NCBI RefSeq assembly: GCF_019880225.1
Contig: NZ_CP082284.1
Coordinates: forward strand, 1 to 64,000
Reading direction: 5' to 3'
DNA length: 64,000 nt
From: Halobaculum rubrum
Lineage (GTDB): Archaea > Halobacteriota > Halobacteria > Halobacteriales > Haloferacaceae
Shown: positions 9,532 to 24,518 of the stretch, one piece after another
Layout: each line of letters starts with the position of its first letter
Position numbering within the stretch: position 1 is the first letter of the stretch
Program-made: the position numbers and the translations under genes
The notes under the pieces: model-generated
What the model was told of the DNA's origin: nothing
Databases searched by the model: none
The model's input: only the letters and a program-made list of their open reading frames with translations

Positions 9532-10563
9532 ATGACCGACATAGTCGCCACCACGCCGGGGCTGTATCCGCTCCCGGACCGGGCGAAAGACGACCTCTCC
9601 GACCTGAAAGGCCACCAGAAACACGACCTCATCGACGGCGAGGAGGGCGGCGCCGTCGCGGACGCGTACGACGACGTGCGCGCGGCGTTCGTCGCCGACC
9701 AGCGCGACGCCGGCCTCGACCGGGTCGTCGAGGGACAGGGTCGCTGGGACGACATGCTCGCGCACCCGCTGACCGTCCACGCGAACGTCGAGACGGGCGG
9801 GATCGTGCGCTACTACGACAACAACAACTTCTACCGCGACCCGCGCGTCGTCGGCGACCTCGACGCCTCCGGCGACGTGGCGGCGGAGCTGTCCGCGGCG
9901 GCCGACCTCCTGGACAACGACGTCCTGCAGGCGGTCCTTCCGGGCCCGTACACCCTCGCCGATCTCGCGACGGACGAGCACTACGGCGACGAGGCCGAGT
10001 TCCTCGACGCCGTCGGCGACTTCCTCGCGGGCGAGGTCGAGGCGTTCCCGGCCCACGAGACGCTGTTCCTGCTGGAGCCGTCCTACGTGACGAACGCGCC
10101 GGGCGACGACCTGAACGAGCTCGCGAGCGAGACGATCGACCGGGTCGCCGCCGCGACCGACGCCGACGTGGTCGTCCAGACGTACTGGGAAGCGTTCGAG
10201 GAGACGGCGTACGCCCACCTCATGGACGCGGACGTGGACGCCGTCGGCTTCGACTTCGTCGCCGCCGACCGCGATACCAACCTGGAGTACGTCAACGAAC
10301 TCGGGACGAAAGCCGACATCGCGCTCGGGCTGGTCGACGGACAGAACACGCTCGTCGAGGACCCCGAAACGGTCGCCGAGCGCGTCGACTGGGTCCGCGA
10401 CCAGATCCCCGCACAGGAGTTCGACACCACCTACGTGACGCCCAACACCGAGACGTTCTACCTGCCCGTGAACAAGCACCAGGCGAAGCTGTCGGTGCTC
10501 GCCGAGGCGGCCGAGATCGCCGCCGGCGACGCCGACGCCGCGGAGACGGAGGTGGAGGCATGA
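9532..10563 (+). CDS. Methionine synthase component, MetE/UROD-like (first of a pair)
   Basis: This is a TIM-barrel protein of the cobalamin-independent methionine synthase (MetE) and UROD superfamily. In haloarchaea two adjacent MetE-like genes are thought to provide methylation of homocysteine. The 343-residue protein starts MTDIVATTPGLYPLPDRAK and contains LPGPYTLADLA, similar to its neighbour. The ATG at 9532 fits an AT-rich box (TATTAT) about 30 nt upstream. The frame is open earlier only as a shadow of the methyltransferase gene. Its stop overlaps the next start (ATGA). It lacks the obvious His-x-Cys/Cys zinc set that the next protein has, so it may be the substrate-binding partner, by inference. 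Confidence 0.82.
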   Translation: MTDIVATTPGLYPLPDRAKDDLSDLKGHQKHDLIDGEEGGAVADAYDDVRAAFVADQRDAGLDRVVEGQGRWDDMLAHPLTVHANVETGGIVRYYDNNNFYRDPRVVGDLDASGDVAAELSAAADLLDNDVLQAVLPGPYTLADLATDEHYGDEAEFLDAVGDFLAGEVEAFPAHETLFLLEPSYVTNAPGDDLNELASETIDRVAAATDADVVVQTYWEAFEETAYAHLMDADVDAVGFDFVAADRDTNLEYVNELGTKADIALGLVDGQNTLVEDPETVAERVDWVRDQIPAQEFDTTYVTPNTETFYLPVNKHQAKLSVLAEAAEIAAGDADAAETEVEA

Positions 10564-11642
10564 GTCGACACCCCGAGAACCGCGAGCAGTTCCGCCCGGA
10601 GGGCCACGACAACGATCACTTCCTGCTGACGACCGTCGTCGGCTCGTACCCGAAGCCCAAGTGGCTGAACCGTGCCCGCGATCACTTCGAGGACGACGAC
10701 CACTCCTTCGGCGAGTCGGAGTGGGCGGAGGCGACCGACGACGCCTGTCGCGTCATCACCCACGAGCACGAGCGCGCCGGCCTCGACACCGTGGTCGACG
10801 GCGAGATGCGCCGCGAGGAGATGGTGGAGTTCTTCGCCGAGCGCATCGACGGCTACGAGTTCAACGGGCCCGTGAAGGTGTGGGGCCACAACTACTTCGA
10901 CAAGCCGTCGGTCGTCGAGGGCGTCGAGTACGACGAGCCGTGGCTGGTCGACGAGTTCGAGTTCGTCGACGACGTGGCGACGCGTCCGGTGAAGGTGCCG
11001 ATCACCGGCCCGTACACCCTCGCGAACTGGGCGTTCAACGAGGCGTACGACGACGACGAGGCGCTGGCGTACGACCTGGCGGACCTGGTGAACGAGGAGA
11101 TCGAGAAGCTCGTCGAGGCGGGCGCGCGCTACATCCAGATCGACGAGCCCGCGCTGGCGACGACGCCGGACGACCACGCCATCGTCGGCGAGTGTCTGGA
11201 GCGCATCGTCAGCGACATCGACGAGGAGGTCCGCATCGGCCTCCACGTCTGCTACGGCGATTACTCGCGCGTCTACCCCGAGATCAACGACTACCCGATC
11301 GACGAGTTCGACGTGGAGCTGTGCAACGACGACTACGAGCAGATCGAGACGTTCGCGGACGGCGAGTTCGCGCCCGACCTCGCGCTCGGCGTCGTCGACG
11401 CCCACGTCGCCGAGGTGGAATCCGTCGAGGAGATCAAAGAGAACATCCAGCAGGGGCTGAAGGTCGTGCCTCCCGAGAAGCTCACCGTCAGCCCCGACTG
11501 CGGGCTGAAGCTCCTGCCCCGGGAGGCCGCCTACGGCAAGATGGAGAACATGGTGCAGGCCGCCCGCGAGGTCGAGGCCGAGCTCGACGCCGGCGATATC
11601 GACGTGCCCGCCGTCGAGGACGTCGCCCCCGCCGACGACTAG
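10560..11642 (+). CDS. metE: Methionine synthase catalytic component (MetE C-terminal-like, zinc enzyme)
   Basis: This is a homocysteine methyltransferase related to the C-terminal catalytic half of MetE. The 360-residue protein has the start segment LLTTVVGSYPKP. It also has GPYTLANWAF, IQIDEPALAT, and likely zinc ligands in HVCYGDY (His and Cys) and in SPDCGLKLL (Cys), as in MetE enzymes. It is translationally coupled to the preceding MetE-like gene through an ATGA overlap, so the two halves are probably made in equal amounts. The methyl donor is not clear from sequence: archaeal short MetE proteins often use a methylated corrinoid or protein donor rather than folate triglutamate. Confidence 0.88.
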   Translation: MSRHPENREQFRPEGHDNDHFLLTTVVGSYPKPKWLNRARDHFEDDDHSFGESEWAEATDDACRVITHEHERAGLDTVVDGEMRREEMVEFFAERIDGYEFNGPVKVWGHNYFDKPSVVEGVEYDEPWLVDEFEFVDDVATRPVKVPITGPYTLANWAFNEAYDDDEALAYDLADLVNEEIEKLVEAGARYIQIDEPALATTPDDHAIVGECLERIVSDIDEEVRIGLHVCYGDYSRVYPEINDYPIDEFDVELCNDDYEQIETFADGEFAPDLALGVVDAHVAEVESVEEIKENIQQGLKVVPPEKLTVSPDCGLKLLPREAAYGKMENMVQAAREVEAELDAGDIDVPAVEDVAPADD

Positions 11643-21062: not shown

Positions 21063-21782
21063 CTACCGGCCGTCACGGCGTTCGCCGTCCGCGTCGGGGC
21101 TGCGGTCCCCGCTGTCCCACCCGCTCACCTCGCGTAACGTCTCGAACGCCTCGCGTTCGGCGGGTCCGCCGCACCGATCGACCACGTCGGCGAAGTACCG
21201 CAACCGAGCGAGCAGTTCAGCGGTATCGTACGACGGCACGTCCAGCCGAGAGACGGCGACCGTCGCGTCGATCACGGCGCCGAACCCGCGGTTGATCGTT
21301 CGAACGTCCGTCCGCTCGACAGCCGCATCTGTCACCCGGAGGTGCCAGTCGACCCACTCGGTGCCGCCGCGCTCGCCCGAGCCGACCCGCTCGACCTCGA
21401 GTTCGGCCCACGCGTCCGCCGAGTCGAGCACCGGCTCCCGTTCCTCGCGGACGGTCGCCGCGGCGTCGACGAAGTCTCGCGGGTCGGTCACGAACTGGAC
21501 GACGCCCTCGCCGCGCTCCGTGAAGTTCCGCCAGGTTCGGGTCCGGCCCCACGTCCGCGCCCGCACCGGCGCGTCGGCGGGCCGGCTGTCGTGCTCGGGG
21601 GCGTGAAGGCCGAGCGCGGCGAGGTTCCACAGCCCGTTCGGCCCGAGCGTCGCCACCACCGACTCGGTGACGCCGGCGAGATCGACGGGCCAATCGCCGA
21701 CTGCGTCATCGCCGCCCCGGCCGTCGTCGCCGTCATCGTCCCCGTCACCGTCGCTGATCCCCTGGAGCGGCTCGTCGCTCAC
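21063..21782 (-). CDS. DUF447 family protein (flavin-binding split-barrel type)
   Basis: DUF447 proteins are archaeal. Solved members have an FMN-binding split beta-barrel fold resembling flavin reductases, but no reaction is assigned. The 239-residue protein has an acidic, Asp/Gly-rich start (residues 8-30), then ESVVATLGPNGLWNLAALGLH, the typical first strands. TERGEGVVQFVTDPRDFVDAA and INRGFGAVIDATVAVSRLD follow. The GTG start (21782) overlaps the stop of the CitG-like gene (GTGA). It is the last gene of the cofD operon, which puts it in a flavin/deazaflavin context. Confidence 0.85.
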   Translation of the reverse strand: MSDEPLQGISDGDGDDDGDDGRGGDDAVGDWPVDLAGVTESVVATLGPNGLWNLAALGLHAPEHDSRPADAPVRARTWGRTRTWRNFTERGEGVVQFVTDPRDFVDAAATVREEREPVLDSADAWAELEVERVGSGERGGTEWVDWHLRVTDAAVERTDVRTINRGFGAVIDATVAVSRLDVPSYDTAELLARLRYFADVVDRCGGPAEREAFETLREVSGWDSGDRSPDADGERRDGR

Positions 21783-22672
21783 ACCGACACCCCGCGTTCG
21801 AGCGCGACGAACAGCGCCGCGGCCGTGACGTCGGCGGTCGTCCCGGGGTTGATCCCACGATCGGCCAACTCGTCGGCCCACCACTCCGCCTCGTCGAGGG
21901 AGTCGATCCTCGCCGCTTGCTCGCGCACCTCGGCGGCGGTTTCGGGACCGTGCTGTGTCCGGACGAGGGTGTCCTCGGCCTCCGCGAGCAGGTCGAGGAA
22001 CGCGCGGGCCGCGCGGTCGGCGATCGGTCCGTCGTCCGCGCGGATCGCCTCGGCCGCGCGGAACGTCCGGGGGTATCCCTCGACCCACTCGCGGGCGTTC
22101 GCGTCGCCGGGCGTCCCGCGCTCGTCGACCGGTGCGGCCGACTCACGCATCACGTCGAACAGGGTCACCTCACGCTCGCGCAGCGCCGGAACCGCGTCGG
22201 CGCCGCGGCGCACGTCGAGCGCGTCCATCCCCTCGGGCGGGTCGGTCACCGCCACGTCGACGTGCTCGAACGCGCGGTAGAACCCGGCCGCGTCGTCGAC
22301 GGTCGTCGACTCACACACTGCGGCGACGCCGTCTGGCGCGAGCGCGCGGTCGTCGGCCGCGGCCGCGCGCACGAGCGGCGTCAACAGGAGAAGACAGCCG
22401 AACTGCGTGTTGCCGCCTGACTGCTCGCTCATCCCGGCGACAGCCGTCCCGAACGCCTCGCCGACGGGGTCGCCGGCGGCCGCACGTTCCAGCCCCGGCC
22501 GGGCGCCGACAGCGCCCGCGAGGAAGTGCTCGAATCGGAGCTCCGCGAGGTCGCGCGCGCGGTCGACGTTGCCGGGTTTCGGCGTCCCCGCCACCTCCAG
22601 GAGCAGGGCGAGTTCGGCGTTCGCCGCCGGGCCGCGCCGCGGGGCGTCCGCGACGACAGCCTCGTCGGTCAC
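21779..22672 (-). CDS. CitG/MdcB-like triphosphoribosyl-dephospho-CoA synthase family protein
   Basis: The 297-residue protein belongs to the CitG/MdcB family, whose bacterial members make 2'-(5''-triphosphoribosyl)-3'-dephospho-CoA from ATP and dephospho-CoA. The family signatures GTPKPGNVDRARDL (near 31-44), SGGNTQFGCLLLLTPL and INPGTTADVTAAALF are clear. No citrate or malonate lyase is encoded nearby. Its archaeal job is probably different, perhaps another nucleotidyl or ribosyl transfer for a cofactor. It overlaps both neighbours by 4 nt (GTGA at each end). Confidence 0.85.
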   Translation of the reverse strand: MTDEAVVADAPRRGPAANAELALLLEVAGTPKPGNVDRARDLAELRFEHFLAGAVGARPGLERAAAGDPVGEAFGTAVAGMSEQSGGNTQFGCLLLLTPLVRAAAADDRALAPDGVAAVCESTTVDDAAGFYRAFEHVDVAVTDPPEGMDALDVRRGADAVPALREREVTLFDVMRESAAPVDERGTPGDANAREWVEGYPRTFRAAEAIRADDGPIADRAARAFLDLLAEAEDTLVRTQHGPETAAEVREQAARIDSLDEAEWWADELADRGINPGTTADVTAAALFVALERGVSV

Positions 22673-23529
22673 CGCGACACCCCCGGCGGCTCCGCTCGGA
22701 TAGTCGCGTCCGCCGGACCGTCGCCGTCGGCCCACTCGTCGACCGCCGCCCGGACCCGGCGCATGACCTGCGGGTCGTCGCTCGGGCGGCCGACGCTCAC
22801 CGCGTCGGCGCCGGCCGCGAGGTACTCGCGGACCGTCCGCCGGTCGCGGACGCCGTTGTTCGCTATCACGACCTGGCCGGGCGCTGCGGCCTTCACACGC
22901 CCCACGACGCCCTCCGAGTCCATCGCGTCGACGTGGATCACGTCCGCGCCGGCGGCGGCGACCGCGCGGGCGGTGTCGGCGAGGTCGACGCCGTCGACCT
23001 CCGCGCGAACCTTCACGCTCACGTCCGCGCCCTCTCCGGCCGCCGCGGCGACGTACTCGGACAGCCGACCGGTGTCGGCCAGCAGCGTCTCGCCGCAGCC
23101 GACGGCACACAGCTCCGCCTGCCGGCAGTGGGCGTTCACCTCCAGGATCGCGTCGCGGTCGGCGCACACGGCGGCCGCGTCCCGGACCGCTCCCGCGCTC
23201 GTCGCCCGGACGTTCACCCCGGCGCGGAGGTCGTGTTCGTCATCCACGATCACGTCGAGTTGGTCGGCGATCCACGCGAGCGGATCCACGGGGAGGAACT
23301 CCGAGCGGCCCCGGTCGGCGACCGTCGCGCGGGCGGCCGCGCGACTCTCGGCGTCGAGCGCGATGCCGCCGATGAACGCCGCGCCGGCGAACGGGGTGCC
23401 GGCGCGCGCCCACTCGGCGTCCGCCTCGCCCGAGAGGCTCGCGAGCGCGACGGGCGGGTCGATGTCGAGGTCGGCCGCGGTCGCCGTGGTTGCCGCGGAG
23501 TCGGACCGCCCGTCCGCCTCCTCGCTCAC
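22669..23529 (-). CDS. Dihydrouridine-synthase-like TIM-barrel flavoprotein
   Basis: The 286-residue protein resembles archaeal proteins annotated as tRNA-dihydrouridine synthase or dihydroorotate-dehydrogenase-like. A barrel with [21 protein letters not shown] is followed by [53 protein letters not shown] and [10 protein letters not shown], matching an FMN phosphate site (the Asn-Gly and Gly-Arg loops). The first 35 residues are acidic and disordered. Three Cys in the [12 protein letters not shown] stretch are unusual and could hold a catalytic Cys or a metal. The position between cofD and citG-like suggests cofactor metabolism rather than tRNA. Confidence 0.75.
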
Positions 23530-24518
23530 TCGGCCACCTCCAGCGCCGCTCGACAGGCCCGCGCCACGCGCTCGGCGTCGTCCGGACCGTCCATCCGCGT
23601 GTCGGTTCGGACGACCGGCCGGCCGAGGGCCGTTCCGTCGTCGTCGTCGAGCACGAACGCGTCCGCGAACGGGTAGGCGTCGGCGACGCCCCGAGTGTTC
23701 GGGTCGCGGCCCACGCCGCGCATGAGCTCCGCCGCGGGTCCGGAGAACACCCGGTCCTCGACGAACGGGGAGACGGCGACGACGGTCGTCTCCGCGAGCG
23801 CCTCGCGGACGCCCTCGAGCGCGAGCATCGGGCCGATGCTCGTCACGGGATTCGAGGGGCCGATCACCACGTCGTCGCGCAGCGCCGCGCGGACCGCGTC
23901 GGTCGCCGCCGCGGCGTCGCCGCCGCGGAACTCGACGTCCTCGACGGCGGGCTCGCCGCGGTTCGCGACCCAGTACTCCTGGAAGTGCATCGAGCCGTCC
24001 TCGGTGTGGACGATCGTGGCAACGGGGTCGTCGCTCATCGGGATCAGTTCGATGTCGAGGCCGAACGCCTCCGCGAGCGTGCGCGTCACCGCGGTGAGCG
24101 TGCGTCCTTCGTCGAGCAGCGAGGTTCGAGTGACGTGGACCGCCCGGTCGCGGTCGCCGATCTCCATGAACTCCGCGACGCCGGAGAAGCGCCGCCAGCG
24201 GGCGATCTCCCGCCCAGTGATCTGGGCCTCGTCCGGGAGGTACCGCGGACCGCCCCCGAGCCCCCCGGCGTCGGCGAGCCGTACGAGCTCCTCGTGGGTC
24301 TCGGTCGTGTCGTCTGCGATCCCCCACCACGTCTCGCGATCGAGGACACCGCCGCCGTGGAACAGGACCGTGTCGACGTCGGGGCACACGAGGTGGCCGC
24401 CGATCTCGACGTCGTCACCGGTGTTTCCGACGACGGTCGTCTCGGCGGGGGCGAACACGCCCGCGGCGCCCTCCAACAGCTTCGGCGTGCCGGTGCCGCC
24501 GGCGAGAAACGTGACCAT
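23526..24518 (-). CDS. cofD: 2-phospho-L-lactate (LPPG) transferase, coenzyme F420 synthesis
   Basis: CofD joins the activated 2-phospholactyl (or phosphoenolpyruvyl) group to Fo to make F420-0. The 330-residue protein shows the N-terminal [20 protein letters not shown] and [19 protein letters not shown]. Other family segments are [20 protein letters not shown], and [18 protein letters not shown] near 215-232. It heads a four-gene minus-strand operon in which every junction overlaps by 4 nt. The ATG at 24518 is the natural start. Confidence 0.95.

Follow-up and report, generated by a model that had tools for sequence, protein, structure and literature searches.

The cofD operon

The window, a 64,000-nucleotide stretch of the Halobaculum rubrum genome (contig NZ_CP082284.1, positions 1 to 64,000; genome size ~3.06 Mb), contains at positions 21063-24518 a four-gene operon on the minus strand, headed by the coenzyme F420 biosynthesis gene cofD. 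The relatives of the genome and its acidic, GC-rich proteins mark it as haloarchaeal. The cofD gene (23526..24518), which encodes 2-phospho-L-lactate transferase (384 bits with TIGR01819, whose cut-off is 257), is followed by a gene for a flavin mononucleotide (FMN)-type TIM barrel of the Dus superfamily (22669..23529), a CitG-like gene (21779..22672; PF01874, 202 bits) and a gene of the DUF447 family (21063..21782), whose product is over the cut-off for both profiles of the family, PF04289 (72.9 bits) and PF20766 (65.7 bits). The genes overlap at 23526..23529, 22669..22672 and 21779..21782, and every junction is the same four nucleotides, GTGA, in which a GTG start codon and a TGA stop codon share letters. 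The overlapping reading frames and the three junctions described in the first-pass annotation are borne out by the sequence and the profile matches.

The CitG-like protein belongs to the same Pfam family as the triphosphoribosyl-dephospho-CoA synthases CitG and MdcB, and it has the motifs PKPGNVDR, NTHFG and INPGTTAD, which are similar to those in CitG from E. coli; hence it probably performs a ribosyl transfer. However, it is far below the equivalog cut-offs for MdcB (23.3 against 282.35) and CitG (17.8 against 272.3), and the phylogenetic tree places it among archaeal proteins and proteins from bacterial tetrahydromethanopterin (H4MPT) gene clusters, in a clade split from canonical CitG/MdcB with 100/100 support. 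No genes for citrate or malonate lyase were seen among the neighbouring genes examined. The earlier view that the protein is not a helper of these lyases is therefore upheld.

CitG places a 5-triphosphorylated ribosyl group, in α linkage, on a hydroxyl of dephospho-CoA, while methanopterin, the one-carbon carrier of methanogens, carries an α-ribofuranosyl 5-phosphate on its deoxyribitol, and a phosphodiester links this ribofuranosyl group to hydroxyglutarate. This correspondence makes the CitG-like protein the natural candidate for the ribosyl transfer of methanopterin synthesis. The dephospho-tetrahydromethanopterin (dH4MPT) of Methylobacterium extorquens has neither the phosphate nor the hydroxyglutarate (PMC8141765), which, together with the presence of CitG in the related proteobacterial clusters, favours the ribosyl step over a later one, provided that the form made by these bacteria is the same. 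By analogy, the case for the CitG-like protein as the ribosyl transferase stands about evenly balanced.

DUF447 is a family of flavin-reductase-like split barrels, which we take to bind flavin, and has relatives of known structure (PDB codes 2iml, 2nr4, 2ptf and 3b5m). The protein from the window is proposed to be a reductase of the pathway in which the CitG-like protein acts.

The Dus-like protein reaches 121.7 bits with TIGR00736, under the cut-off of 218.7. It is of the MJ0144 or methanogenesis marker 9 type but lacks the marker 9 C-terminal domain (TIGR03277), which is present in its methanogen-side homologues. Its structure is modelled with confidence as a TIM barrel (pLDDT 88.7), with the best PDB matches to tRNA dihydrouridine synthase and dihydroorotate dehydrogenase, at a TM-score of ~0.6. 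With the tRNA dihydrouridine synthases it shares the barrel fold, a conserved loop cysteine and the GR motif of the superfamily. Those enzymes possess a C-terminal helical RNA-binding domain, whereas the model shows no such domain, its barrel being followed by a single terminal helix (residues 253-270). The tRNA of Haloferax volcanii was reported to be free of dihydrouridine (PMC2584109); the genome of this species contains a TIGR00736 match, which may or may not be the cofD neighbour. Judging from the model, a role on tRNA is improbable for the protein. The Cys-x5-Cys-x3-Cys cluster, pointed out earlier as odd for such an enzyme, is not a trait of the family. Its first residue (C135, in NAHCRQ), which by eye corresponds to the catalytic cysteine of Dus, is nearly invariant, while C141 and C145 are absent in close relatives, and a conserved triple-cysteine cluster was consequently rejected. 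In one marker 9 homologue (L042, 9362-10312) the HCRQ motif of the barrel is lost while the Cys-rich C-terminal domain is kept.

Two modules and the H4MPT gene clusters

The order Dus-CitG-DUF447 recurs in many families of the phylum and so is not due to chance; in haloarchaea it is preceded by cofD. Within the sample of the phylum, the CitG-like gene almost always has DUF447 as its direct neighbour, and in most cases the Dus-like gene precedes the two. Outside the haloarchaea, cofD lies near this pair at three of the loci read, and at most of them it is not beside the pair. The methanogen-side operon has the same families in the same order, but there the place of the Dus-like gene is taken by methanogenesis marker 9, with its extra C-terminal domain, whereas in the haloarchaeal operon cofD is added. 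In several families (L034, L038, L040, L043, L044 and L045) the genes for marker 9, CitG and DUF447 are divergent from the cfb genes of coenzyme F430 synthesis.

The four genes also come apart. Three haloarchaeal genomes (G008, G049 and G104) have cofD and the Dus-like gene followed by asd, with CitG and DUF447 missing in between. In genome G017 the Dus-like gene is missing from between cofD and CitG-DUF447, and no match to the Dus-like family was found anywhere in this genome. Since CitG-DUF447 can be absent where cofD-Dus is kept, and Dus where the other three are kept, the four do not make up a single obligate pathway, and on the evidence of gene order the operon is composed of two modules rather than a single F420 pathway. 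The first-pass annotation had envisaged a joint F420- or pterin/flavin-linked modification and had proposed an analysis of neighbourhood and co-occurrence. That analysis, now carried out, retains the involvement of a pterin-linked pathway, but not the unity of the four genes, as the CitG-DUF447 pair is separable from cofD-Dus and tracks mptG, the gene for β-ribofuranosylaminobenzene 5'-phosphate (RFAP) synthase, and the H4MPT clusters rather than cofD.

Among the control genomes, DUF447 is present in exactly those that contain MptG, namely Methanocaldococcus jannaschii, H. volcanii, Sulfolobus acidocaldarius and Methanosarcina acetivorans; CitG is found in the same four and otherwise only in E. 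coli. Bacterial homologues of DUF447 were located by scanning named genomes with the DUF447 alignment. The locus in Desulfosporosinus lacus includes mptG, an AfpA/DmrX-like flavoprotein, a gene of the dihydropteroate synthase (DHPS)-like family TIGR00284 and DUF447, together with the fwd subunits of formylmethanofuran dehydrogenase, the formyltransferase gene ftr, mch, an MptN-like ligase and CitG. The compared genes of Moorella and Formimonas are in the same order. On plasmids of Azoarcus, Phyllobacterium and Azospirillum the genes form two groups, one with mch, a RimK-type or unnamed gene, CitG, fae and mptG, and the other with a flavoprotein, DUF6513 and DUF447. No cofD was found or annotated in the stretches examined around the Bacillota and Proteobacteria H4MPT clusters. 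In three archaeal families, DUF447 and CitG lie near a TIGR00284 DHPS-like gene and either DmrX, a dihydromethanopterin reductase, or AfpA. All this makes it very probable that the CitG-like and DUF447 proteins belong to an H4MPT-type pathway.

The resemblance to the ‘archaeal-like’ cluster of methylotrophs, whose genes were all reported as essential for growth on methanol (PMC8141765), is close: the CitG-like, DUF447 and mptG families occur together in both, and the methylotroph CitG-like proteins lie on the archaeal side of the strongly supported branch. In the published order, mch-orf5-orf7-fae (PMC3615186), the CitG-like gene occupies the place of orf7, as judged by the mch-RimK-CitG-fae order of the plasmids. 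Two equations with M. extorquens proteins were rejected: DUF447 is not Orf22, which is MfnB, and CitG is not Orf5, which is a glutamate ligase (PMC8141765); DUF447 would then, by elimination, correspond to Orf19 or Orf20. The haloarchaeal set differs from the methylotroph cluster in having no DHPS-like gene, in being linked to cofD or mer, and in belonging to heterotrophs to which tetrahydrofolate has been assigned. The association of both families with H4MPT is already known at the level of the clusters. The openly licensed papers that were searched contain none naming CitG, DUF447 or their COGs within the methanopterin pathway; accordingly, in that literature a named step is not given. New here are the joint loss of the set and Mer in haloarchaea and the steps that are proposed for the proteins.

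Several other observations were made at these loci. In three archaeal families the DHPS-like gene has a gene for a PHP-domain protein next to it (L032 9897-10562, L041 11069-11740 and L046 6920-7555); this protein is a candidate phosphatase or another missing step of methanopterin synthesis. YfcE-type metallophosphoesterases, weakly similar to one another, are encoded beside CitG (L036 6792-7466 and L041 7017-7694) and beside mptG (L149 8879-9436, in G017); they are candidates for the phosphatase acting on the ribosyl phosphate. The fwdB gene in the Moorella and Desulfosporosinus clusters contains an in-frame TGA in the conserved context PxSY-U-HGPG (L054:13252-14535 and L056:13187-14497), which would fit a bacterial formylmethanofuran dehydrogenase that contains selenocysteine, and the reading frame is split in the same way at L055 and L058. 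At two loci from Acidobacteria metagenome-assembled genomes (L052 and L053), the DUF447 homologues are closest to the 3b5m sequence and have no recognised pathway neighbours.

The haloarchaeal set and Mer

DUF447 is present in 318 of the 322 haloarchaea. The four genomes without it, G422 (genus g3), G104 (g9) and G008 and G049 (both g7), also lack the CitG-like gene and mptG. In the 79 haloarchaea tested for all three genes, 73 have the complete set, four have none and two are missing one. The F420-dependent methylene-H4MPT reductase Mer follows the same pattern: among 50 haloarchaea, the genomes with no Mer over the cut-off are exactly the four DUF447-less ones. The set is present in other members of genera g3 and g9. 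The calls of loss depend on the assemblies, with confirmation at the level of the locus for three of the four genomes (G008, G049 and G104), in which cofD-Dus is kept. Fisher tests give p values of 3e-6 to 2e-5 with genomes treated as independent, although a fair count is about three loss events. As far as presence and absence in genomes can tell, haloarchaea keep or lose the CitG-like, DUF447 and mptG genes together with Mer.

The source genome contains mptG as well, unlinked to the operon (G000:C1:1756109-1757050; 148.7 bits, cut-off 113.5). The neighbours of haloarchaeal mptG are uninformative in most genomes (ilvD, transcription factor S). In genus g111, however, two metE genes are divergent from mer-CitG-DUF447-mptG, and in G425 (locus L138) the order is npdG / mer-DUF447-mptG-metE-metE. 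A search of the G425 genome found no CitG-like gene, and the CitG step may there be dispensable or replaced. In G017, mptG is followed by a metallophosphoesterase gene, cofE and mer. The metE genes encode a split methionine synthase, a possible user of the methyl carrier, which in the window is matched on the plus strand at 9544..10560 (first subunit) and 10578..11618 (catalytic subunit; NF003317, 539 bits, cut-off 406). Three of the four loss genomes have no catalytic-type MetE over the cut-off, but G422 retains one, and the tie between MetE and the set is therefore only a loose one. Some matches to Mer and MetE contain internal stop codons (G216:C1:2096738-2097694 and G116:C16:32624-33604), which may represent pseudogenes, recoding or sequence errors.

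The comparison of genomes shows that the CitG-like protein, DUF447 and MptG form a set in the H4MPT pathway. The operon probably couples F420 synthesis, through cofD, to two methanopterin-type pathway genes whose product serves Mer, and the service of the set to Mer is in itself rated as rather probable. In the proposed scheme, MptG would join an aromatic acid (p-aminobenzoic acid, pABA, in methanogens) with phosphoribosyl pyrophosphate to yield RFAP or a close analogue, which would be coupled to a pterin by an enzyme for which FolP is the only haloarchaeal candidate. DUF447 would then reduce the ring of the ribofuranose, giving the deoxyribitol, although casting it as the ribose reductase is a doubtful guess. 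The CitG-like protein would add a 5-phosphorylated ribosyl group in α linkage to the deoxyribitol, as CitG does with dephospho-CoA, to complete a methanopterin-like carrier. Mer would reduce the methylene group of this carrier with F420H2, a requirement that would explain the pairing of cofD with the set, and the methyl group would pass, perhaps via the split MetE, to homocysteine. The Dus-like barrel would act on a separate substrate.

A number of points weigh against this scheme. The co-loss rests on about three events, and two genomes are discordant, G425 with no CitG and G330 (70 contigs) with no MptG. G422 keeps MetE despite losing the set. All three set-less genomes that were tested for Mch still have this enzyme, which may use folate. 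The similarity of the haloarchaeal MptG is only moderate; it keeps R26, the arginine of the pABA-binding region, and has an asparagine in place of D19, although the D19N variant of the methanogen protein MTH0830 retains activity (PMC6787355). The DHPS-like coupling enzyme TIGR00284 is over the cut-off in none of 33 haloarchaea, which leaves the folate enzyme FolP as the sole candidate for this step, and the product could thus differ from a pterin-RFAP compound; it can be described as working like H4MPT, and not be filed under H4MPT biosynthesis. Haloarchaea, moreover, have been assigned tetrahydrofolate, also as the substrate of Mer and Mch, and a curation rule holds that methanopterin-specific enzymes are absent from them, although a homologue of MptG is noted in the same work (PMC8305020).

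Competing explanations and significance

The absence of a DHPS-like enzyme, the published tetrahydrofolate assignment and the retention of Mch in set-less genomes and of MetE in G422 would all agree with mptG, CitG and DUF447 making an RFAP-derived compound other than the carrier of Mer, which would use tetrahydrofolate. The co-loss would then reflect several dispensable functions lost in the same lineages. This is unlikely in view of the exact coincidence of the Mer and DUF447 absences in 50 genomes and of the operons in two genera that join mer with DUF447 and mptG. The haloarchaeal Mer clears the equivalog cut-off for the methylene-H4MPT enzyme, 276 bits, by a good margin; its published assignment is to methylene-tetrahydrofolate (PMC8305020). 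A pathway in which all four genes make or modify F420, the CitG-like protein phosphoribosylating it and the flavin proteins reducing it, would account for the position of cofD at the head of the haloarchaeal operon and its proximity to CitG-DUF447 at the three non-haloarchaeal loci, as well as for the co-loss of an F420 user, Mer. It is nevertheless very improbable given the three genomes with cofD-Dus and no CitG-DUF447, the bacterial clusters that hold the pair with no cofD in the stretch, and the separation of cofD from the pair at most non-haloarchaeal loci.

Least probable is that the CitG-like protein is an ordinary triphosphoribosyl-dephospho-CoA synthase for some acyl carrier protein: the shared Pfam family and motifs would allow it, but the equivalog scores, the tree and the surroundings, with no lyase genes seen and with relatives in H4MPT clusters, do not agree with such a function. 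The Dus-like protein alone might be a dehydro-F420-0 reductase, which archaea would need if CofC and CofD used phosphoenolpyruvate. Archaeal CofC reportedly accepts this compound, and archaeal CofE is not known to carry the FMN domain of FbiB. The FMN-type barrel, the four-nucleotide overlap with cofD and the retention beside cofD when CitG-DUF447 is lost fit this function. A role in F420 synthesis is therefore possible, yet G017, with cofD-CitG-DUF447, cofE and mer, does without a Dus-like protein, and the genomes of two non-haloarchaeal loci with cofD (L036 and L041) contain no TIGR00736 match. As the classical archaeal route is also held to use 2-phospholactate (PMC8498797), the reductase assignment is considered quite unlikely.

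In its widest form, the preferred explanation is that haloarchaea, whose one-carbon metabolism has been attributed to tetrahydrofolate only, make a second, methanopterin-like carrier for Mer and methionine synthesis with MptG, the CitG-like protein, DUF447 and a different pterin-coupling enzyme, and that the CitG-like protein is the missing ribosyl transferase of methanopterin synthesis in archaea and bacteria. It is put forward tentatively, at slightly less than even probability. About seven proteins of the methanopterin pathway were counted as unknown in 2011 (PMC3087415), and the analysis provides concrete candidate functions for DUF447 and the archaeal CitG, two families that had no assigned role. 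It contradicts the curation rule on haloarchaea mentioned above, and the question of which carrier Mer and the split MetE use is directly testable in the genetic model H. volcanii, where mptG is HVO_2628 and mer is HVO_1937. The importance of F420 in haloarchaea was called enigmatic (PMC8305020), and a methanopterin-like carrier reduced by Mer would help to explain why these organisms retain it.

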